This document shows positions 31 through 12,900 of a stretch of DNA of 44,264 bases, piece by piece; positions within the stretch are counted from its first letter, which is position 1, and each line of letters opens with the position of its first letter. Location of the stretch: the NCBI GenBank assembly GCA_016927495.1, contig JAFGMP010000256.1:1-44264 (forward strand), in the 5' to 3' direction. Both the position numbers and the translations under genes were made by a program. The notes under the pieces are model-generated. The model saw nothing but the letters and a program-made list of their open reading frames with translations. It searched no databases and was not told the DNA's origin. Source of the stretch: Candidatus Latescibacterota bacterium (lineage in GTDB: Bacteria > Latescibacterota > Latescibacteria > Latescibacterales > Latescibacteraceae).

Positions 31-1920
31 GTGAATTTAAGGTTAACGAAAAAATGTATATTGATACTTGCCTTAGTATTTAATCTAAATGCATTCTCCT
101 TGTATTCACAGGAAAAAGGATTGACTGAGGAAGTTTTCTTTCAGCCCATTGAAACGGTAATCACGGCAGGAAGAACCGAACAGAGTATCGAACGGGCTCC
201 GGCAACGATTACGGTAATTTCTTCGGAAGAAATAAAATCATCCGGGGCACTAACTATTCCGGAACTTCTTAGATTTGTTCCTGGAATCGATGTCATGACC
301 ATCACAGCTTCCCACTCGGAGGCAAATGCCCGGGGTTTGAACCAGTTACTATCGAATAAACTTCTGATTCTTATCGATGGACGGTCGGTCTACTTCGATT
401 TTTATGGCGGTGTTATCTGGCAGGGACTGCCGATTCTTATGAATCAAATAGACAGAATTGAAATTGTACGGAGTCCCGGTTCTGCTCTCTATGGAGCAAA
501 TGCATTCAGCGGGGTAATTAACATCATTACGAAAAATCCGAGACAACTGAACGGCGGTCATATTCAGATTCAGGCCGGAGAAAATGGGGTTGTACATACA
601 TCTGCAGTTGTTGGAGACTGGAAAGAAGATACCGGTTACCGATTTGCTCTGGGTACACGTAAAATAAACAGTTATCGTGATCCCCATGAAGATTCGGAGG
701 ATCATGTAATCGGTAATTTCTACCTGGAACATCGTTTAAAGAACAATGCAAAATTGTCTGCCGAGGCCGGTATGGGGCGCGGGTCCATAGTTCAAATCGC
801 AAGAATTGAGGAGACAAAATTCGAAGCTACCACATCATATGCAAAAATGAATTTCGAGCAAGGTTCTTTCAAAGTTCAGGCATTCTGGAATCATGGTGAT
901 GAAACCGGCGGGGCTTTTTTCCCTCCGGGGGATGACGTAAACATCCTTTTTAATACGATTGATCTGGAAGCCCAGCATATGTTGGAATTTGGAAGGAAAA
1001 ATAGCTTTATTTACGGTGGCTCTTATCGCTTTAACAAAATTGAATCGAATTTAATTGACCGTGATCATGATCAGAATTTAACGGCTGCATACTTTCAGAA
1101 TGAATATAGGCCAATACCTGATATAAGTCTTCTTGCTGGAGCCCGTGTTGATCACCACCCACTGGTCGGCATCAATATAAGTCCCAGAGGCAGTTTCATT
1201 TACTCACCGACCAGCCATCACACACTTAAATTTTCTATCGGCAGGGCATTTCGCAATCCCTGTTTCACCGACTCTTATATTAATCTCGCAACCCCGTTAG
1301 GACTTCAGGTAGTCGGTGAGTCTGATCTTGATTCGGAAACTATCACAACGTATGAAATCGGTTACATGTTCTTCCCAGGATACCGGTTACGTACGGAAGT
1401 GAATTTATTCAAATACAACTTTAAAGATTATATCGGTTTTGGGGAACCCCAAATAATAGATCAAATACCGGTACAATCGTTCGTAAATCTTGGAAGTGCA
1501 GAATCTCAGGGATTCGAAGTGTCAACCGATATAATACCGGTTCGCTGGTTGAAAGTATCTTCGAATTACAGCTACCAGGAACTTGATAATCAGTATACGG
1601 TGTTAAAAGAACAATATCCTGCAAAGCATAAAGTAAATGTCAAACTCTTTTTCTCTTTACCGAAAGGTGTATCCGCTTCATTTCTAACCGGGTATGTAGG
1701 TAAAAGTAAATGGGAAGTTCCGACACAAGCGGGAGACTATGCCGAGGCAGTTACCGAAGCACACACCAGGTGTAATGGGAGATTGGGTTACCTGCTGGAA
1801 AATCAACGTTTGGAACTTTTTACATCGGTGTATAACATTTTTGATACCGGAAATAAAGAATACCCATTTGGTGAAGGGATCAGAAGACGGATAGTCGGAG
1901 GAATTAACTTTTCTTATTAA
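31..1920 (+). CDS. TonB-dependent outer-membrane receptor
   Basis: A 629-residue outer-membrane receptor that would import a ligand using TonB energy. The GTG start at 31 follows an AAGGAG ribosome site at 19-24. A signal peptide covers about residues 1-27. The plug domain (about 40-170) has the classical motifs SGALTIPELLRFVPGIDV and ALYGANAFSGVINIITK, and the rest alternates like a 22-strand barrel, ending in aromatic FSY. It is the first gene of a tight same-strand series: the solute-binding protein follows after a few dozen bases, then a histidine kinase. This arrangement suggests that it admits the ligand which the downstream proteins bind and sense. The ligand cannot be read from the sequence. 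The gene starts 30 bases from the window edge, so the operon could begin further upstream. Confidence 0.93.
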   Translation: MNLRLTKKCILILALVFNLNAFSLYSQEKGLTEEVFFQPIETVITAGRTEQSIERAPATITVISSEEIKSSGALTIPELLRFVPGIDVMTITASHSEANARGLNQLLSNKLLILIDGRSVYFDFYGGVIWQGLPILMNQIDRIEIVRSPGSALYGANAFSGVINIITKNPRQLNGGHIQIQAGENGVVHTSAVVGDWKEDTGYRFALGTRKINSYRDPHEDSEDHVIGNFYLEHRLKNNAKLSAEAGMGRGSIVQIARIEETKFEATTSYAKMNFEQGSFKVQAFWNHGDETGGAFFPPGDDVNILFNTIDLEAQHMLEFGRKNSFIYGGSYRFNKIESNLIDRDHDQNLTAAYFQNEYRPIPDISLLAGARVDHHPLVGINISPRGSFIYSPTSHHTLKFSIGRAFRNPCFTDSYINLATPLGLQVVGESDLDSETITTYEIGYMFFPGYRLRTEVNLFKYNFKDYIGFGEPQIIDQIPVQSFVNLGSAESQGFEVSTDIIPVRWLKVSSNYSYQELDNQYTVLKEQYPAKHKVNVKLFFSLPKGVSASFLTGYVGKSKWEVPTQAGDYAEAVTEAHTRCNGRLGYLLENQRLELFTSVYNIFDTGNKEYPFGEGIRRRIVGGINFSY

Positions 1921-1957
1921 CTCGGATATGTATAATTATTCTTCGGGGAATATAATA

Positions 1958-2938
1958 ATGTTTTTGAGATGTGCAAAATATATAAGATATAGCATGATTT
2001 GCCTGGGTATCCTCAGTCTTTTATTGATAGTTACCCCTGTTGAAGTATCCTCCGAACCTGTTCGCATTTTAATTGTCAAAAGTGCGATGGGAACTGAATA
2101 TGATCAAACAGTCAGTGCTATCAAATCATCTTTACAAATGGATGGTATGTCATTTGTCACCGAAGAGATACTTATTGTTCCCGCACAGGAAGAAGAACAG
2201 GTTTTCTGGAATAATGTGCATAGAAATAAACCCAAACTTATTATTACCGTTGGTACAAAGGCGACTACGTCGGCAGTAAATTTTGTACGGGATATTCCGA
2301 TCATTTTTACCATGGTTCTTGGAAAAATTGAAACTATCGAATCACAAATGATTTCCGCCCGTACTAAGGATATCAGTGGTGTAACTCTATCGATTCCCGT
2401 AAAAGACCAGTTGACCATGATGCTCGAAGCATTGCCATATGTAAGGAGAGTGGGTTTATTATACAGCAGGGAGTCGATTCAGACTTATAATGCTGCAAAC
2501 GAAACCACGAAAAAAATGGGGTTACGCCTGCTTGCCAATGAAATTTCAAGCGAAAGGGATATTCCGATTGTCCTGAGAGAAATTCTTCCCGAAATAGATG
2601 TATTCTGGCTGCCACCTGATGCTGTTGTTTATGAGAGGAATAATTTATCATATATAATCCGTGAATGTTATACGAACAGCATTCCTGTAATTGCTGTCTC
2701 CGAACAATTTGCCAAAGCCGGAACTCCATTGGCTTTCGGTATCGATTATACAGACCTTGGTAAACAAACAGCCGAATTAGCTCTACGCAGATTATCAGTT
2801 AATTCTTTCTCAACGCCCGTCATCGAAACACCACGTAAAATATTGCTTCACATTAACAAAGGCGTTGCGACAAGTCTTGGGCTTAAGATACCGGGGAGAA
2901 TACTTGAACGGGCAATACCGGTGGAAAACGGGAGATAA
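1958..2938 (+). CDS. ABC-type solute-binding protein (ABC_sub_bind family)
   Basis: A periplasmic binding protein of the ABC_sub_bind (PF04392, TrpX-like) family, about 326 residues. I chose the ATG at 1958 because GGGGAA at 1945-1950 gives a good ribosome site; an in-frame ATG at 1928 has only a weak one. The N-terminus (FLRCAKYIRYSMICLGILSL onward) is a signal peptide. Two alternating alpha/beta lobes follow, with the family-like stretches LIITVGTKATTSAV and GVTLSIPVKDQLTMM. No permease or ATPase gene is adjacent, so it may act as a sensory binding protein presenting ligand to the next-door kinase rather than as part of a transporter. The kinase ATG begins one base after its stop codon, suggesting translational coupling. 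The ligand is unknown; members of this family bind aromatic amino acids and other small molecules. Confidence 0.85.
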   Translation: MFLRCAKYIRYSMICLGILSLLLIVTPVEVSSEPVRILIVKSAMGTEYDQTVSAIKSSLQMDGMSFVTEEILIVPAQEEEQVFWNNVHRNKPKLIITVGTKATTSAVNFVRDIPIIFTMVLGKIETIESQMISARTKDISGVTLSIPVKDQLTMMLEALPYVRRVGLLYSRESIQTYNAANETTKKMGLRLLANEISSERDIPIVLREILPEIDVFWLPPDAVVYERNNLSYIIRECYTNSIPVIAVSEQFAKAGTPLAFGIDYTDLGKQTAELALRRLSVNSFSTPVIETPRKILLHINKGVATSLGLKIPGRILERAIPVENGR

Positions 2939-2939
2939 T

Positions 2940-4607
2940 ATGGTTGGTACAAATATTGGTAAGTCAGCACGGTCACAACTCGGAACAAAATCGATACTGG
3001 CTGTAGTATTTTTGTTAAGTGCAATATCAATTACTCTGACTGTATTTTTTGTTTCCGGGCAAAAAAACTTTCTCAGTGAAGAGCTTAATAAACGAGCGCT
3101 TTCTCTTGCAAGTAATATGGCATATAACAGCCAGTTTGCCGTACTATCAAGTGATATCACATTTCTTCAAACTCTTATTTCGGGTGTTAAAAAGGAAAGC
3201 GATATAAAAGATGCATTTATAACCGATATTGATGGAGTTATTCTGGCTCATGACGATAAAACCCTAATCGGGCAGAAGATAACAATTCCGACAATCGGAG
3301 ATTCGACATTCTATCAAAGCTGGTTGCCAACGGAGAACAAAGATATAAAACGAACGATAACACTCATTGAGATCGAAAGAAAACCTGCGGATAGTGATGA
3401 AAATATTCTTTTTTCCACTCCTGAGGAAACGAGTGATTCAAACTCAACTGCCATGACTCAATTATACATCAAACCACTTGGATACGCCATTCTTGATGTA
3501 TCGCTTGAGAGTATGAACAGGGCGCTGTCTGTCGGTACACGAAATGCAATAATAATTACGCTTATTATGATTTTATTGGGAGCACTTGCCATTATTTATC
3601 TGGTGAGGAGTGTTGCCGGGCCTATCTATTACCTTGCAGATGCAACAAGAGCTGTAGCGGAGGGTGACCTCGAACAATACGTACCGATTACAAGATCGGA
3701 TGAAATCGGTGTGCTGGCAGACTCTTTTAACCATATGATTGAGCAGTTAAAAGTCTCAAGAGAGAAGATTGAATCCTGGAATCGTGAGCTTGAAACTAAA
3801 GTAGCAGAACGTACAACCGAACTGGAAGAAAAACATAATGAACTTGAAAAAGCTTACGAAGCGTTAAAAACGCTGGATAAGGCTAAGGATGATTTTTTAT
3901 CTCTTGTCTCTCATGAACTTCGAACTCCTTTAAGTTCAATCTTACTGTATTCCGAAATGTTGTTGGATGGCCTTGCAAACTCTGCGGAAGACCGGAATGA
4001 TTTTCTTACCACTATTGTTGAAAATTGCAAGAGGCTTACTCGATTGATTAATGATGTATTGGATCTTTCCAAGATAGAAGCCGGAAGAATGCCGTTTAAT
4101 TTTGAAGAATTGAATATTAAAGGATTGGTGGCGGAAACATTAACCGGAATACGTCCCAAACTTGAAAATCAGTCTTTGAAGTTTGAATATGATCAGATAG
4201 ATGAAAATGCATGTCTCTGGGGTGACAGAGATAAAATAATACAGGTTTTGACAAATATAACCTCGAACGCAATTAAATTCACTCCTGTGGGAGGTAGAAT
4301 CAGTGTTTCGCTGAGCCATAAAAACAACATGGGTGTAGTCGCCGTGGAAGATACCGGCAAAGGTATCGAAAAGAAGGATATACCGAAAGTCTTCGACAGG
4401 TTTAGCCAGCTGGAAAGCATCGATCATCATTCAGAGGGTACGGGATTGGGAATGACAATTTCGAAATCAATAATCGAACGAATGGGAGGAAAAATCTGGA
4501 TAGAGAGTGAACGTGGAAAAGGAACAACCGTTTTCTTCACTTTATCGAAAATAAAACCGAAATTGAGAAATACTGCACAAATGGAAGTTAATAATGGAAC
4601 TCAATAG
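2940..4607 (+). CDS. membrane sensor histidine kinase (HAMP, HisKA, HATPase)
   Basis: A 555-residue sensor kinase. I chose the ATG at 2940, right after the previous stop, with GGGAGA just upstream; the open frame extends to 2865 but that start lies inside the previous gene. Order: TM1 (about 18-40), a periplasmic sensor region of about 155 residues, TM2 (about 200-222), HAMP (about 225-275), a coiled coil (about 280-320), HisKA with the phospho-accepting H325 in SHELRTPLSS, then HATPase_c with N box (NITSNAIKFTP), G1 (DTGKGI), F box (FDRFSQ) and G2 (GTGLGM). The gene overlaps the next response regulator by 14 bases. The solute-binding protein and receptor upstream suggest that it reads a ligand in the periplasm, possibly through the binding protein. 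Confidence 0.94.
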   Translation: MVGTNIGKSARSQLGTKSILAVVFLLSAISITLTVFFVSGQKNFLSEELNKRALSLASNMAYNSQFAVLSSDITFLQTLISGVKKESDIKDAFITDIDGVILAHDDKTLIGQKITIPTIGDSTFYQSWLPTENKDIKRTITLIEIERKPADSDENILFSTPEETSDSNSTAMTQLYIKPLGYAILDVSLESMNRALSVGTRNAIIITLIMILLGALAIIYLVRSVAGPIYYLADATRAVAEGDLEQYVPITRSDEIGVLADSFNHMIEQLKVSREKIESWNRELETKVAERTTELEEKHNELEKAYEALKTLDKAKDDFLSLVSHELRTPLSSILLYSEMLLDGLANSAEDRNDFLTTIVENCKRLTRLINDVLDLSKIEAGRMPFNFEELNIKGLVAETLTGIRPKLENQSLKFEYDQIDENACLWGDRDKIIQVLTNITSNAIKFTPVGGRISVSLSHKNNMGVVAVEDTGKGIEKKDIPKVFDRFSQLESIDHHSEGTGLGMTISKSIIERMGGKIWIESERGKGTTVFFTLSKIKPKLRNTAQMEVNNGTQ

Positions 4608-4974
4608 AAACAGAATTTTAATTGTCGATGATGAAAAAGCTATTCGTATGGGATTATCAATGTGTGTTAAAGCCTCCGGTTTTGAGTCTATGGAAGCCTG
4701 TGATGGAAATGAAGCTTTACGTTTTGCGTCAGAGCAACATCCGGGATTGATAGTTCTCGATGTAATGATGCATGGTATGTCCGGGCTGGAGGTTTGCAGA
4801 AAATTAAAATCGGATCCCTCAACTAAAGATATTAAAGTTATAATGTTGTCTGCCAGGGGACAAATCAGGGAACGTGAAGAGGGGCTTGAAGCGGGTGCCG
4901 ATAAATATATTACCAAACCTTTTGATTACAGAGAATTGATAAAAAATATAAAAATATTATTAGGGATTAAGTAA
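4594..4974 (+). CDS. single-domain response regulator (CheY-like)
   Basis: A 126-residue stand-alone receiver domain. The acidic pair D12-D13, phospho-acceptor D56 in LIVLDVMM, S86 in VIMLSARG and K108 in TKPF are all present, so it should be phosphorylated normally. There is no output domain, so it would signal by protein contact or act as a phosphate shuttle to the next gene product. Its ATG at 4594 lies inside the end of the kinase gene, and its stop codon shares a base with the next start (TAATG at 4972-4976). That coupling makes the upstream kinase its probable phosphodonor. Confidence 0.93.
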   Translation: MELNRNRILIVDDEKAIRMGLSMCVKASGFESMEACDGNEALRFASEQHPGLIVLDVMMHGMSGLEVCRKLKSDPSTKDIKVIMLSARGQIREREEGLEAGADKYITKPFDYRELIKNIKILLGIK

Positions 4975-5981
4975 TGGAAGTTAATAATCAAAAGTCGCAT
5001 TTTGTGTATGATAAGTTAAATCAGGATATAGAGCAATTACCGTCAAAAATATTAGTAGTTGACGATGATATATCGCTGCGCAAAGGATTAGCACGACTAC
5101 TTGAGGCTGAGGGATACAGGACGATAGAAGCCGAAAATGGCAGAGAAGCGATCGGATTGGTTTCTTCGGGAAAAACCGATCTTATTTTACTCGATCTTAT
5201 GATGCCGGAAGTGAACGGCATTGAAGTTTGCACCCTTTTAAAAAGTAATGAAGAAACCAGATTGATACCGATAATAATGATTACTGCGGTTCACGAACAG
5301 GAAGAAAAACTAAAGGCAATACATGCAGGTGTTGATGATTTTCTCAATAAACCGATCAACATAGCGGAGCTTCGAGCCCGTGTTAAATCGTTGTTAAAAA
5401 TGAAACGTTTGAACGATCTTCTTGATTATTCCGATACGGTGGTAGCTTCTCTGGCAAATGCTATCGAATCGAAAGATAAATACACTGAGGGGCATAATGA
5501 ACGTGTCTCACGGTTTGCGGTTGAACTGGCAAAAGTTGCGGGTTTAAATGATAAAGAACAGGAAATGGTAAGAATGGCCGGTATTCTTCATGATATCGGT
5601 AAAATTGGCATACCCGACAATATTCTCAATAAACCGGGGGCTCTTACGGATGATGAATTCACCATTATAAAATCTCATCCGCAACACGGAGAAAAAATTC
5701 TCAAGCCTCTTCATTCCCTGCATGGAGTTCGTGATGTTGTTCTTTATCATCATGAACGTTTTGATGGTAAAGGTTATCCCTACGGTTTAAAAGGGGAACA
5801 GATACCGATTTACGCAAGAATCGTTGCCATAGCTGACAGCTATGATGCAATGACAACAAAAAGACCATACCGTAACGCTTATACCCAAAATGAAGCAATA
5901 AAAGAATTGGAAACAAAAGCCGGACAGTGGTGGGATCCGGAACTTATAAGATTATTTGTCGACAGTGTGTTATTAACATGA
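4974..5981 (+). CDS. response regulator with HD-GYP phosphodiesterase domain
   Basis: A 335-residue two-domain regulator. The receiver domain (about 24-145) has D30-D32, phospho-acceptor D74 in LILLDLMMP and K126 in NKP. The HD-GYP domain (about 155-335) has the HD pair H206-D207 in ILHDIGKIGIP, HHE at 259-261 and the GYP motif at 267-269 in DGKGYPYGLKG. HD-GYP proteins of this type hydrolyse cyclic di-GMP, some also cGAMP, so phosphorylation would change second-messenger levels. All catalytic motifs are intact. It shares its first base with the previous stop codon. In this operon it is the likely output of the sensing arm, linking a sensed ligand to motility or biofilm state. No GGDEF partner is present in the window. 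Confidence 0.94.
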   Translation: MEVNNQKSHFVYDKLNQDIEQLPSKILVVDDDISLRKGLARLLEAEGYRTIEAENGREAIGLVSSGKTDLILLDLMMPEVNGIEVCTLLKSNEETRLIPIIMITAVHEQEEKLKAIHAGVDDFLNKPINIAELRARVKSLLKMKRLNDLLDYSDTVVASLANAIESKDKYTEGHNERVSRFAVELAKVAGLNDKEQEMVRMAGILHDIGKIGIPDNILNKPGALTDDEFTIIKSHPQHGEKILKPLHSLHGVRDVVLYHHERFDGKGYPYGLKGEQIPIYARIVAIADSYDAMTTKRPYRNAYTQNEAIKELETKAGQWWDPELIRLFVDSVLLT

Positions 5982-6020
5982 TGATATATAAAATAAATTT
6001 ATAATTCAAGGATATGTTAG

Positions 6021-7763
6021 ATGGTGGATCTGATATTATGGAATTCGATTGCCAACAGACGTCGATCACCAAGTGATACTTTTCTGGAAAACGGTCTGGG
6101 AACACTTAAATCATATATTGAAAAGCAGGGATTCAATGTACATATCATCGATTGGGCAACAAGTGACTATTGGGAAACATTCACGCCGAAAATTTTATCA
6201 AAAATCAATAGATATCTCGCAACCAAACTGATTTCTTCAGGCAACAGAAACAAGTTATTAACGTATTTTATTAAACCTGTTTTTTTACTAAGTCAGTCAC
6301 TTATGTCGAGATTTCAGGAGCGGGCAATGTATACCGCACTGCTTAATTTGGCCAAATCATTTCGAAAAGACGGATGTCCTGTGCTTGGTATAAAAGTCTG
6401 GTACGGTGAGGCTTACAGAGCTGCAAAAACATTTGCTAATTTGGTACATACTCTGGCGCCGGAAATTCTTATCGTTGCAGGAGGACCTCATGCAACAATT
6501 TACCGTGAGGCTATACTTGGAGACAATGTATTTGATATATCTGTGATCGGAGAAGGCGAAAGAGCGTTATCAGCTATTCTCGGCCTTGCCCGGCGGACGT
6601 ACTCAAAAAATAATTTGCTCGATAAAATTATTCATGAAGCAAAAAATAACAGATTGAAAAATGTTGTTTACCGGGACGGTTCCGAAATAAAAATAACTAC
6701 AATAGATAAAGCGGATGCAAATAAAAAAAATATTCCCACATATGATAATATGGACGGAAAGACAAGAATTCATGTTGTTGTTGACTCTCTTGGTTGCGAG
6801 TGGGCGAAGTGTAATTTCTGTGTTCATTCAAATGTTTACCCGGATCATACATTAAGAGATCCGCAGTCTGTTATCGATGAAATTGAAACTATGATTTCAA
6901 AAGATATAGGTATTTTCCGTTTTGCAGGTTCTTCTTCATCTCTTGATCATATTTGTGAAATAGCAAGATTACTTACGGAGAAAGATATTAAGATTATATA
7001 TTCAATGTTTGCACGGTCAGTACCCAAATCTTCGGAAGAAGAAAACTACAGAAAAATTGTTGAATCCTACAGGTTGCTTATTCGTACAGGACTTCGCGCC
7101 GTATTTGTCGGTGGTGAATCCGCCGATGATAAAATACTCAAATCCGTAATGGGAAAAGGATTGTGCAAGAAGGAAATTATTGCAACAATCAAAGCAATGA
7201 AGCAAGCCGCAGAAGAGGAGGGATTGCCGCTTGATATCGGCCTTTCATTAATTTATCCGACACCGACAATGAGGGAGATGTCTTTAGAAAAACTTAAATT
7301 ATTGAACATCGAATTAGTTGAAGAAACAAATCCTGATTCCGTGCTTGTAAATCCCCCGGCGCCTTTTCCGGGGACGACGTGGTTCAACCATAGCACTCAG
7401 TTCGGATTTGAGTTAGGGCAGAATTTCGTTCAAAAAATGCTTAATTATGATTATGTGCTTTACAAACCACCCAATCTCTGGCCTGATATTGATCTGAAAC
7501 TCGAAGAAATGGATTTTCACCAGATACTCAATGAATGCCAGAACCTGAGAAAATCTTTGGAAGAAAATGGAGTTGTAACTGAAGTAACCGATGAACACTT
7601 TTTGATGATGCGTGCTTCAGGTTATACAGGAAGAGAAGGCGCGCTTACATTTAAACAAAACGCTCTGCTTGATATTTTATCATGTGACTACAAATGGATA
7701 AATAATATGCAGGAAAAAGTAAACCAAACAAGTCGTGCACAAGCACGATTAAACAGGAATTAG
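6021..7763 (+). CDS. B12-binding domain radical SAM protein, atypical CX4CX2C cluster motif
   Basis: A 580-residue enzyme of the cobalamin-dependent radical SAM class. The ATG at 6021 follows AAGGATA. Residues about 1-200 form the B12-binding-like domain with VAGGPHATIY and VIGEGERAL, both typical of this class. The radical SAM barrel follows, with cysteines C259, C264 and C267 in GCEWAKCNFC. This is CX4CX2C, one residue longer than the usual CX3CX2C. Later motifs include GLRAVFVGGESADDKILKSVMGKG, typical of a substrate or SAM-binding strand, and GLSLIYPTPT. The reaction could be methylation, oxidation or rearrangement and cannot be named. It sits 39 bases after the HD-GYP gene and 4 bases before the acyltransferase, so it may make or tailor the acyltransferase product. 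Confidence 0.88.
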   Translation: MVDLILWNSIANRRRSPSDTFLENGLGTLKSYIEKQGFNVHIIDWATSDYWETFTPKILSKINRYLATKLISSGNRNKLLTYFIKPVFLLSQSLMSRFQERAMYTALLNLAKSFRKDGCPVLGIKVWYGEAYRAAKTFANLVHTLAPEILIVAGGPHATIYREAILGDNVFDISVIGEGERALSAILGLARRTYSKNNLLDKIIHEAKNNRLKNVVYRDGSEIKITTIDKADANKKNIPTYDNMDGKTRIHVVVDSLGCEWAKCNFCVHSNVYPDHTLRDPQSVIDEIETMISKDIGIFRFAGSSSSLDHICEIARLLTEKDIKIIYSMFARSVPKSSEEENYRKIVESYRLLIRTGLRAVFVGGESADDKILKSVMGKGLCKKEIIATIKAMKQAAEEEGLPLDIGLSLIYPTPTMREMSLEKLKLLNIELVEETNPDSVLVNPPAPFPGTTWFNHSTQFGFELGQNFVQKMLNYDYVLYKPPNLWPDIDLKLEEMDFHQILNECQNLRKSLEENGVVTEVTDEHFLMMRASGYTGREGALTFKQNALLDILSCDYKWINNMQEKVNQTSRAQARLNRN

Positions 7764-7767
7764 AATT

Positions 7768-8667
7768 ATGGTTGCCCAGAATTTGAAATCATTGACTTTT
7801 ACATATAATGAAAATGAGGAAGCATCCATGTTAGCCAACAGTGAAATAAAAAAACCGAGGGAAATACGGTATCAGATTTTAAATGACTATGAGGATATAA
7901 AATCATGTTTACGTTTACGATATATAAGTTATAGGTATGTTAATTTTATTGAAGAAAATAAGGATCGCCTCGATATCGATGCATACGATCCCTATTCCAC
8001 TTTCCTCGGAGCATATGACGTAACTGATGGCAAACGAATTTTAGTGGGAACCATGCGAATTATCAGCATAAACGAGAATAGTAAAAACATTTCGCAGATT
8101 GCGGAATTGATCTCAAATGCACATGACCCACACATAAAAGAACTGGATAATCGACCTGAATTGTTTCCTATAATGGAATCATTCATACTTCCTGATTCTT
8201 ATCATGATCATTTAAATACATTTAAAAACGGACATCAATCATTTCATCCGTATGAAATTTCAAGACTCGCTGTAAGGCCGGATTACTGGATGCATAATGT
8301 AGATGTAGGATTACATCATCTTTTGGTGTTGGACAGCTGGTTAAATAATCCGCCGCGTAATGATTTTCTCATTGCCGTTCACCCACGGTCACGCAGACGG
8401 TATGAGCGTGTCGGTTTTGAAATCATTCCCGGGACCAAAGAAGTGCTGTATAAGCATATCGATCAGCTTGCAATTGCGATGGTTCTCGATTTGGAGGAAT
8501 ATCTGAAGAGACCTAAATCATATAAGGAAACATGTGAAGCTTTATTGCCGCATTACAAAGAACACCACTATTTCAGTCGTATCACGGAAAGAAGACAGAT
8601 CGAGCGAAGAATTAAAGAAAGAAGAAAAGAAGAGAAAAGGAAAAAAATTATCAATGAAGAAATATGA
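7768..8667 (+). CDS. LuxI/FeeM-like N-acyltransferase (putative signal synthase)
   Basis: A 299-residue GNAT-fold protein resembling acyl-homoserine-lactone synthases and long-chain N-acyl amino acid synthases (FeeM type). Visible hallmarks are an acidic patch D69-D71-D74 before STFLGAYD, the GTMR motif ending in R97, the E163-x-S165-R166 motif in YEISRLAV, and a GNAT-like YERVGFEIIPG at 212-222. In known LuxI proteins the equivalent D, R and E-S-R residues are conserved. The C-terminus (about 271-293) is an unusual run of R, K and E. The start could also be M21 (7828), which has GAGGAAG before it. An alternative is the PEP-CTERM/exosortase-associated acyltransferase family, but no exosortase is visible here. 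As the last gene of the operon it probably makes an N-acylated small molecule. Confidence 0.72.
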   Translation: MVAQNLKSLTFTYNENEEASMLANSEIKKPREIRYQILNDYEDIKSCLRLRYISYRYVNFIEENKDRLDIDAYDPYSTFLGAYDVTDGKRILVGTMRIISINENSKNISQIAELISNAHDPHIKELDNRPELFPIMESFILPDSYHDHLNTFKNGHQSFHPYEISRLAVRPDYWMHNVDVGLHHLLVLDSWLNNPPRNDFLIAVHPRSRRRYERVGFEIIPGTKEVLYKHIDQLAIAMVLDLEEYLKRPKSYKETCEALLPHYKEHHYFSRITERRQIERRIKERRKEEKRKKIINEEI

Positions 8668-9982: not shown

Positions 9983-12900
9983 TCACTCACAAAACAGTAC
10001 ATCCCCGCTAACTTCCGTCATCTCAAATCCCGGACCCGACCACCGGACTTTGAGCGCTTCACCGCCGCCAGCCTCGAAAAAATCCACCCGGATACGGTGC
10101 AGACCCGCTTTCAACCCGATGTCACCGCTTGCTGTTTGCGGCCAGTGACGACCGTCGTTGTTTGCGATGAGCAGGCCGTCGACATACAGCATACCGCCGT
10201 CATCAGATTCGATCTCGAACGTGTAAATGCCGTCTTTGGGGACTTTCACCAGCCCGGTGAACGACAGCCCGAACTGCTCCATATCGGTATTCTTGGCCGG
10301 ATCGAAACCGAAATTCGGCACAATGCCCTGTTTGAGCGGTTTCATGGCGGCAAAGTCCGGCATTTTCTCCCATGATCCCTCGAAATACCCGTAGGCAAGC
10401 CCCGATTTGACATTTCCGGCTGCCACAGGTTCGGTAAGCCCGATGCGATATTCGGTAACCACCGGGACACTCGAAGCGGTTCTGCCACGGTAAGCTCGTG
10501 CAGTCAGAACGAAGTTTCCGCCAAGTTTCAGCGGCGCGTTGTACTGCTGCGAGGCCGGTGTCGGTTCGGTTCCGTCCGTGGTATAATGGATAACCGTGTC
10601 CGAATCGCCCGAAAGCCGTATGTTGAGTTGACTGTCCGCGTACACACCGCCCGGTGGATCGGCTATAGGTGGCGAAGGAGGAATCAGGCTTCGTGCATCG
10701 GCGCGCCATCTGCCGGGAGTAAGCTTGTATGTCTCGATGGCATGATGGCCGACAGTAGCTTGTACAGTTCCGGTTTGCACAACAGCGGGCTGTGGATTCT
10801 CCTCGATAATGTCGGTGGAAAACGCTGTTTCCACCGGGACGAACAGCTTAAGTTCGGTTTCGGTGTTGTTGCCTGTAATTTCATACACACGCATTACCAC
10901 GCTGTTGTCGTCCTCACATTTCTTCAGTGCGCTGATGACAACAGATGAATCGCCGGTTGAAGCGAAACTCAACGTCTCCGGCAGCCTGAATGTTTCTCCT
11001 CTGCGCGGGTGAGGTACCGTAATAAGCGGATTATTGTGACGGACACCCTGAACAAAGCCCGTGCACCAACCCTCACGTCCGGAAAATAATGAGAAAGCAA
11101 AATGGTGGTCGCCAGCCTGAAGATACCAGTTACCCTCGCCGTGGCAGCTACGTCTGCTTGCCAGAAGAAGAGGCTGGAGCACCGGATAGTCCACAGGATT
11201 ATCAGTCGGATCGATCCAGTCGAATACCGCCACGCTGGAACTTACTGTTACACCCAAGTTATCGTCAGATGCGTTAAACCACTCCTGCACTTCACGGGGA
11301 TGGACATCGCTGGCGTTGTCGGTGTACCGTTCGCCCGCAGCGCCATCGATTTCGCTTTTACCTACCTCAACAACTCCCATCGGGGCATCATATGATACAG
11401 TCCCGTTTTCGACCGCAATTGGAAAGGCGAGCCGGTATTCACGGGATTTTGTGCCGTCCCACCCGAGAAGGTCAACTTCGACATCGATACGTTTGACGGT
11501 GTGATACGCTATAATATGCTGGACCACCGTGCAGTGACGGGTCAAACATTCGGTGCGGAAGACTGTGCGGACAGGACCGTCTTCGATTAAGTTCCAGCGG
11601 GGGGCATAGTTACTCAGGCGTTCAAAACCCTCCATTGTAGGCTGCTGCACCGAGGCGAATTCACCGGCGCCGTTCCCCTCGGATTGCATACCGAACAACT
11701 CTCCGCCGAGGAATTTATCAGTATTCAGGATGTCCTGGCCAAGCTCCTTATCGACCAGACTTGCAATGCCGCCGCCGGTTAATTCAATATGATAGAAATT
11801 GTTGTCGATAACCGGATTTTCATTTCCCGAAACATTATTGGGTTTGCGCTCCGGGATTGTTTGAATAGGAACAACATAGCAGACCGAATATCCTAATGAT
11901 GGCACTTTATCCGCAACGAAAACTACTTCCACGGTTTCATCACGCGATTCTCCACTCGATTCGGTAGTAACACGCTGGAATGCAACTTCCCGGCCGAGAA
12001 AATCGAGGATACGAAATCCCGCGCTTTCATGACCATAAACATCCACGTTCATTCTGACAATATCTGTTCGTTCCTGCGGCAGCGGATTGAATACGACATA
12101 TGGTGTGCCCATATCCTTGACCGCAATTTTTGCAGCGATAGACGTGAGAGCATTTTCGAGCATATCCCGTCCCGCATTTCGTCCCGCCTCCATTTTTGTA
12201 CGGAAGAGACGGTCGGTAATTGCGCCGTTGAATCCGCCCCAGCCGTGATCGGGATAGATGGCAGCCATCCATGCTTTTTCAAGTCGTTCCGACGGGTACT
12301 TTTGAAAACTACCGGTTACGAGTGCATCGAAAGTTGCGAACGTTTCGGCTGCTGTTAACATGCGCCATGCCTCACGGCCTGCTGTGAGAGCGCGACGATG
12401 TGTCGGGCCATGGATGTAAAGCCAGACATCGGGCCGTTCACCAACGATAGTTTTCAGCTTTGGTTTATTTTTTGTTACCGCATCGAGGAAGGTTGTTCCG
12501 GTTGCATAGGTCAGGCGCGGCATAATAAACGCTGTCTCCGGTTTGTCAGTGTAACCCCTGTCGACTGCGGCGTTCCATTCGCTGAAAAGATCGTCGAAAT
12601 TCACCGGACCGCTGAAATCGGTCGATACCACGATTCCAACTTCCGGTTTCAGTTTCCATGTACTGTAATAATTCTGTTTTTCACTAAGTGCCGGATAAAG
12701 AGTCTGCCATACCTCGTTGAAACTTTTGGTTTTCTGTATGATTGTGGTATGGTCATCACCCCGCTCGATGCCTTTTCTGAATATTTCACCGGAAGCATGA
12801 TAATGACCGGGAGAATAAGCGGTTACAGAACTACCATCCGGGCTTTCCCAGTTGAACAGACCCTCTTCGTGACGGCTCATGATTAGATAGGGAACACCGG

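Follow-up and report, generated by a model that had tools for sequence, protein, structure and literature searches.

The window analysed here is the entire contig C304 (JAFGMP010000256.1, 44,264 nucleotides) of a Candidatus Latescibacterota genome (GCA_016927495.1; 6.1 Mb, 521 contigs). It carries an operon in which two putative biosynthetic enzymes, a FeeM-type N-acyltransferase and a B12-binding radical S-adenosylmethionine (rSAM) enzyme, stand together with a receptor arm composed of a TonB-dependent receptor (TBDT), a periplasmic substrate-binding protein (SBP) and a sensor histidine kinase (HK). The same gene order recurs in 8/8 genomes of two lineages with rSAM identities of 50-65%, and therefore it is not a chance arrangement. 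The genes form one conserved unit, in which the enzymes are inherited together with the receptor arm. Our preferred reading, which we put forward tentatively, is that the operon makes and senses its own product.

Conservation and organization of the operon

The eight genomes are that of the window, one from another Latescibacterota genus and all six Candidatus Glassbacteria genomes examined. The seven genes also occur in this order in Candidatus Latescibacterota SI047_bin62, from the same family but another genus, and their proteins are 59-73% identical to those of the window where measured; the operon of that genome also contains HTH (helix-turn-helix)-receiver and receiver genes upstream and a methyltransferase gene downstream. 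The enzymes and the binding protein were absent from the other two family members examined, and the rSAM was present in 2/64 genomes of the phylum Latescibacterota. A scan of named genomes located the operon in Candidatus Glassbacteria, and a class search found the rSAM in 6/6 Glassbacteria genomes, each with the receptor arm. The initial annotation had proposed searching other genomes for this gene order, and the order proved to be conserved around all eight close rSAM homologues. TBDT, SBP, HK and HD-GYP genes were found in 8/8 of these loci and a FeeM-family gene also in 8/8, while the receiver-only gene was present in 7/8 and the downstream methyltransferase in 3/8. An HTH-receiver gene lies upstream in 6/6 loci with upstream sequence, and two relatives have an additional receiver gene on that side. 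The methyltransferase of the relatives was not found in the assembly of the window's genome. As to whether enzymes and sensing genes lie apart in relatives, a point the annotation had also raised, they are linked at 8/8 close loci, but the arm is missing at 8/8 distant rSAM loci. Since receptor cores without enzymes exist, and distant rSAM/FeeM loci occur without the arm, the enzymes and the arm are modules that can be separated but remain together in this clade.

The seven genes are all on the + strand, with intergenic gaps of 7, 1, -14, -1, 39 and 4 bases in order. The first encodes the TBDT, with plug and barrel (31..1920; PF00593 3e-32, PF07715 3e-20), and is followed by the genes for the SBP of the ABC_sub_bind family, with a signal peptide (1928..2938; PF04392 2e-30), and the HK, with a single periplasmic Cache/PDC domain and HAMP (2940..4607; sCache_3_2, HAMP, HisKA, HATPase_c). 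Next are a receiver-only response regulator (4594..4974; PF00072 4e-30) and a receiver-HD-GYP regulator, a predicted phosphodiesterase of cyclic di-GMP (c-di-GMP) (4974..5981; PF00072, PF13487). The rSAM (6021..7763; PF02310, PF04055; CX4CX2C motif) and the FeeM/Acetyltransf_5 acyltransferase (7768..8667; PF21926 7e-12, PF13444 1.5e-8) complete the operon. The HD-GYP motifs HDIGKIGIP and HHERFDGKGYP are intact in the window protein, and HDxGK and HHExxDGxGYP are intact in 8/8 orthologues. Hence, the initial description of seven same-strand genes with this order and these motifs was borne out, with each gene in its place and the catalytic motifs intact. The count of seven held only in part: seven genes are present at the locus, but relatives carry additional genes and the contig edge makes seven a minimum. 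Gene 1 starts at base 31, 30 bases from the edge, with a GTG start and a ribosome-binding-like sequence immediately 5'; because the window is the whole contig, the operon is cut off at its upstream edge and seven genes are a lower bound. The ~740 bases 3' of 8667 contain no convincing gene up to 9406, where the first gene after the operon encodes a GxxExxY protein (PDDEXK_3, TIGR04256; 9406-9834).

The receptor arm

No N-terminal signalling domain was found in the TBDT. Its best NCBIfam match is the TOL_0244 family at 241 bits, under the 645-bit cut-off of that family, and its closest solved structure is the colicin I receptor. The SBP has no lipobox that could be seen by eye. The operon genes encode no ABC permease or ATPase, and the SBP therefore looks like a sensor. 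Its gene directly adjoins that of the HK, with a gap of -17 to +3 bases in 8/8 loci, an arrangement expected of binding-protein-linked kinases of the LuxPQ or ScrBC type. The modelled sensor domain of the HK resembles CitA/DcuS/LapD-type domains (E about 5e-3); a LuxQ-like tandem sensor was rejected, as the model shows a single Cache/PDC domain.

The closest solved relatives of the SBP, 6hni, 3lkv and 3lft, hold Tyr, Phe and Trp by a shared grip of the amino and acid groups (PMC6816091). Our SBPs have two invariant aspartates, Asp231 and Asp273, and a tyrosine, Tyr274, that corresponds to Tyr279 of CD0873, while Glu263, which selects tyrosine in CD0873, is replaced by Ser258 in the window protein. 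The clues from the SBP relatives and from the FeeM family would agree with an amino-acid-derived ligand. To accommodate acylation of the amino group, the SBP pocket would have to differ.

To place the arm in a wider context, PF04392 relatives were surveyed in Myxococcota and found in 99/193 genomes sampled. In 20 of their neighborhoods, a kinase gene was directly downstream in 10 and a chemoreceptor together with a TBDT was found in one, whereas rSAM or FeeM genes were found in 0/20. It is thus common for a PF04392 protein to adjoin a kinase, and the further combination with a TonB receptor and a synthase was observed in this clade only.

Three enzyme-free loci (L100, L101 and L102, in the Glassbacteria genomes G148 and G154) consist of HTH-receiver, TBDT, SBP and HK genes only, the SBP of L101 being assigned from a separate search match. 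Because these cores have no enzymes, the arm appears able to serve other ligands. Trees split the enzyme-linked clade from L100/L102 with support of 100/100 for TBDT, 100/100 for HK and 95/97 for SBP, and the rSAM and TBDT trees recover identical groups. These trees are small and midpoint-rooted, and in that of the HK the two core-only copies included, L100 and L102, have long branches.

The enzymes and their pairing outside the operon

The window acyltransferase scored 45.8 bits against PF21926 (FeeM), where the curated cut-off is 27. All nine acyltransferase homologues matched this model, with L096 slightly under the cut-off at 26.9, and the residues R51, D71, D74, R97 and E163 are invariant in 9/9. 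None of the nine matched the autoinducer synthase model PF00765 (LuxI), even at E 10, and we therefore rejected an identity as a LuxI-type acyl-homoserine lactone synthase. Of the original label, LuxI/FeeM-like, the FeeM half stands (E 7e-12) and the LuxI half does not. By its sequence, the acyltransferase is a member of the FeeM N-acyl amino acid synthase family. A fold search with a weak model (pLDDT 67) returned generic GNAT matches only, none at E 0.001, and no relative of the acyltransferase was found in viral contigs. Enzymes of the FeeM type have been connected with N-acyl tyrosines, the stieleriacines, that have an effect on biofilms (PMC7293339).

The acyltransferase gene is directly 3' of the rSAM gene in four genomes (that of the window, G002, G147 and G160). 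In G148, G154 (two copies), G156 and G158, it encodes a protein of ~400 residues and is divergently transcribed beside the HTH-receiver gene. The N-terminal third of this longer form resembles a degenerate receiver domain, and its alignment profile matches YycF (E 9e-5) and PhoB (2e-4). These fusions are located at L037:1713-2918, L097:9123-10337 and 10596-11816, L098:3047-4261 and L099:16085-17335, and a degenerate receiver with a FeeM acyltransferase is an apparently unusual domain pair. The acyltransferase varies in form and place, yet it is always in the locus, and it has a signalling-type domain in half of the cases. The fusion points to a possible role of the enzyme as an output.

In the rSAM, the B12-binding (PF02310) and radical SAM (PF04055) domains are both present, with a conserved three-Cys motif whose cysteines (C259, C264 and C267) are invariant in 12/12 homologues. 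The spacing of this motif is CX4CX2C, compared to the usual CX3CX2C. The solved relatives, OxsB and TokK, are weak matches. More distant rSAM homologues, with identities of 37-40% where measured, were found in SAR324, Myxococcota, Omnitrophota and KSB1. FeeM genes are near the rSAM in 7/8 of these loci, and the eighth contig ends early. Most of the distant loci also contain AMP-ligase genes, and several have MMPL or MacB, LolA-like, DUF1302 and PilZ genes; no TBDT-SBP-HK arm was found at the eight loci within the stretch read. Armless clusters of FeeM, AMP-ligase and B12-rSAM genes recur in several phyla (L038, L039, L040, L041, L042, L166 and L170). Since FeeM and rSAM are found together in distant phyla without a sensing arm, they look like a biosynthetic pair in their own right. 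Even with an external ligand, this is a recurrent biosynthetic partnership, in Latescibacterota, Glassbacteria, Omnitrophota, KSB1, SAR324 and Myxococcota, and no description of it was found in the open-licence literature searched.

The upstream regulator and promoter repeats

In the relatives (6/6 with upstream sequence), the first gene of the operon encodes a BldC-type HTH-receiver regulator with an HTH_17 domain, and in most of these loci the promoter in front of it has direct repeats of 9 bp. Upstream of the HTH-receiver genes there is a TTGAC box followed by TG[TA]TAT repeats, with spacings that are multiples of 9 bp. The pattern was derived from six of the loci, so that their shuffle statistics are biased. 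Among nine held-out loci, the 9-bp spacing is present in L033 and L096, and the two matches in L101 are separated by 90 bp; L030, L031, L032, L037, L100 and L102 do not match, with degenerate repeats seen by eye in L031 and L037. TTGAC with TGTTAT/TGATAT units at 9-bp multiples was observed at L004:11203-11480, L029:5547-5852, L033, L034, L096, L097, L098 and L099, making this repeat pattern, which resembles a BldC-type operator, common to the operon relatives and to other HTH-receiver genes of the window's genome. The window's own promoter is beyond the contig edge. BldC proteins bind 9-bp direct repeats (PMC5859096). The regulator of the relatives shares with them the MerR-like HTH and, at the loci that match the pattern, direct repeats 9 bp apart, but it is fused to a receiver, and its repeats are TGTTAT-like rather than AATTXXXX(C).

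The closest relatives of the HTH-receiver and receiver genes in the window's genome (69 and 64% identity) are at L029 on contig C114. There, the pair heads a cluster of MMPL, LolA-like/DUF1329 and DUF1302 genes, with a divergent receiver-PilZ gene. The C114 gene was rejected as the upstream neighbour of the window because it heads this export-type cluster, which is possibly a candidate (lipid) exporter under the same type of regulator. Four further HTH-receiver paralogues in the same genome (L030, L031, L032 and L033) are each followed by a histidine-kinase-like gene, and the regulator type is therefore expanded in this genome.

Synthesis and sensing in one operon

In the mechanism that we prefer, the seven genes would be expressed as a single transcript. 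The acyltransferase and the B12-rSAM would make a modified N-acyl amino-acid-like compound, and the TonB receptor would carry it, or something closely related, into the periplasm. There, the PF04392 protein would bind it and act, probably by contact, on the Cache domain of the HK, which would phosphorylate the receivers and alter the breakdown of c-di-GMP by the HD-GYP protein. In the relatives, the BldC-type HTH-receiver would also act on the 9-bp repeats at the operon's own promoter. This reading is supported by the 8/8 close rSAM homologues within arm loci, all with a FeeM-family gene, by an acyltransferase that stays in the locus when changed in form or position and then carries a receiver-like domain, and by the clade of enzyme-linked TBDT, SBP and HK apart from the core-only L100/L102. 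By analogy, SBP relatives that hold aromatic amino acids and FeeM-type enzymes tied to biofilm-affecting N-acyl tyrosines would agree with it. Several observations weigh against it. There are core-only loci without enzymes, and in Myxococcota the SBP is often beside a kinase and with neither enzyme, which marks the arm as a sensor of a general type. The receiver-FeeM fusion is just as compatible with synthesis being the output. Proteins of the SBP family hold their ligand by a free amino group, and acylation would block this group. No exporter is among the operon genes. The fullest form of the proposal, an N-acylated and rSAM-tailored cell-cell signal of uncultured Latescibacterota and Glassbacteria with TonB re-entry, SBP-kinase readout, and c-di-GMP and BldC-type control, is one we regard as doubtful.

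Nearly as likely as self-sensing is an external ligand that switches on synthesis. The arm would respond to a derivative of an aromatic amino acid, to a chelate or to a metabolite of another microbe, and the product of FeeM and rSAM, a secreted or membrane lipid-like factor, would be the output together with the change in c-di-GMP. The core-only arm copies fit this explanation, as do the common placement of PF04392 proteins beside kinases or chemoreceptors, the output-like acyltransferase with a receiver-like domain in four genomes, and the armless FeeM/rSAM pairs elsewhere, often near export genes. However, the enzyme-linked receptors are a clade of their own and always occur with the enzymes (8/8), consistent with a ligand linked to the product.

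It is rather improbable that the arm recognizes N-acyl compounds of neighbours while the cell itself produces an analogue that competes or blocks. FeeM-type genes do occur in several phyla and TBDTs commonly import foreign compounds, but no sequence evidence distinguishes such eavesdropping or mixed use from self-sensing. Cofactor supply, with the TonB receptor importing cobalamin for the rSAM and the arm sensing it, is very improbable: BtuB-type models partly match the receptor and the rSAM binds B12, but no cobalamin riboswitch was found in the window or seven related loci, the best family of the TBDT is not BtuB, core-only loci contain related receptors but no B12 enzyme, and the solved SBP relatives bind aromatic amino acids, not cobalamin.

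If self-sensing is correct, the operon would encode a signalling circuit in which the re-entry of a lipid-like signal is driven by energy; the literature searched yielded no signalling system for these lineages. Two poorly known lineages may thus sense their own fatty-acid-tagged product in an undescribed way, and FeeM with B12-rSAM is named as a concrete, testable pathway.

Comparison with known systems

In LuxP-LuxQ, as is proposed here, a histidine kinase receives a signal through a periplasmic binding protein. The signal and synthase are of other kinds, there is no TonB receptor, and LuxQ has two PAS-like folds compared to the one modelled Cache/PDC domain of our HK. Among the PF04392 proteins, CD0873, VC_1101 and SP1069, which bind aromatic amino acids (PMC6816091), share the family and, in CD0873, the tyrosine at position 279; the window SBP differs at the Glu263 position and has no adjoining ABC transporter genes. 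The stieleriacine cluster, in the text searched (PMC7293339), is similar in its FeeM-family N-acyltransferase, accessory methyltransferase and biofilm link, but no rSAM is reported and no receptor arm is described there.

The nearest working precedent is ScrABC of Vibrio parahaemolyticus (PMC11315295), in which one operon encodes a signal-making enzyme, its periplasmic binding protein and a c-di-GMP-changing membrane receptor. ScrA is, however, an aminotransferase and ScrC a GGDEF/EAL protein, and no TonB receptor, FeeM, rSAM, kinase or BldC-type regulator is described. The search of the open-licence literature yielded no paper in which these parts are combined. The initial annotation knew of no quorum system using a TonB receptor and a periplasmic binding protein; systems with a binding protein are known, as LuxPQ and ScrABC illustrate, but the TonB part was unmatched and appears unprecedented within the literature searched. 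A synthase, a binding protein and c-di-GMP in one operon are, as an idea, already known from ScrABC (PMC11315295), and what is new here is the TonB receptor, the FeeM and B12-rSAM chemistry, the kinase with HD-GYP output and the BldC-receiver regulator.

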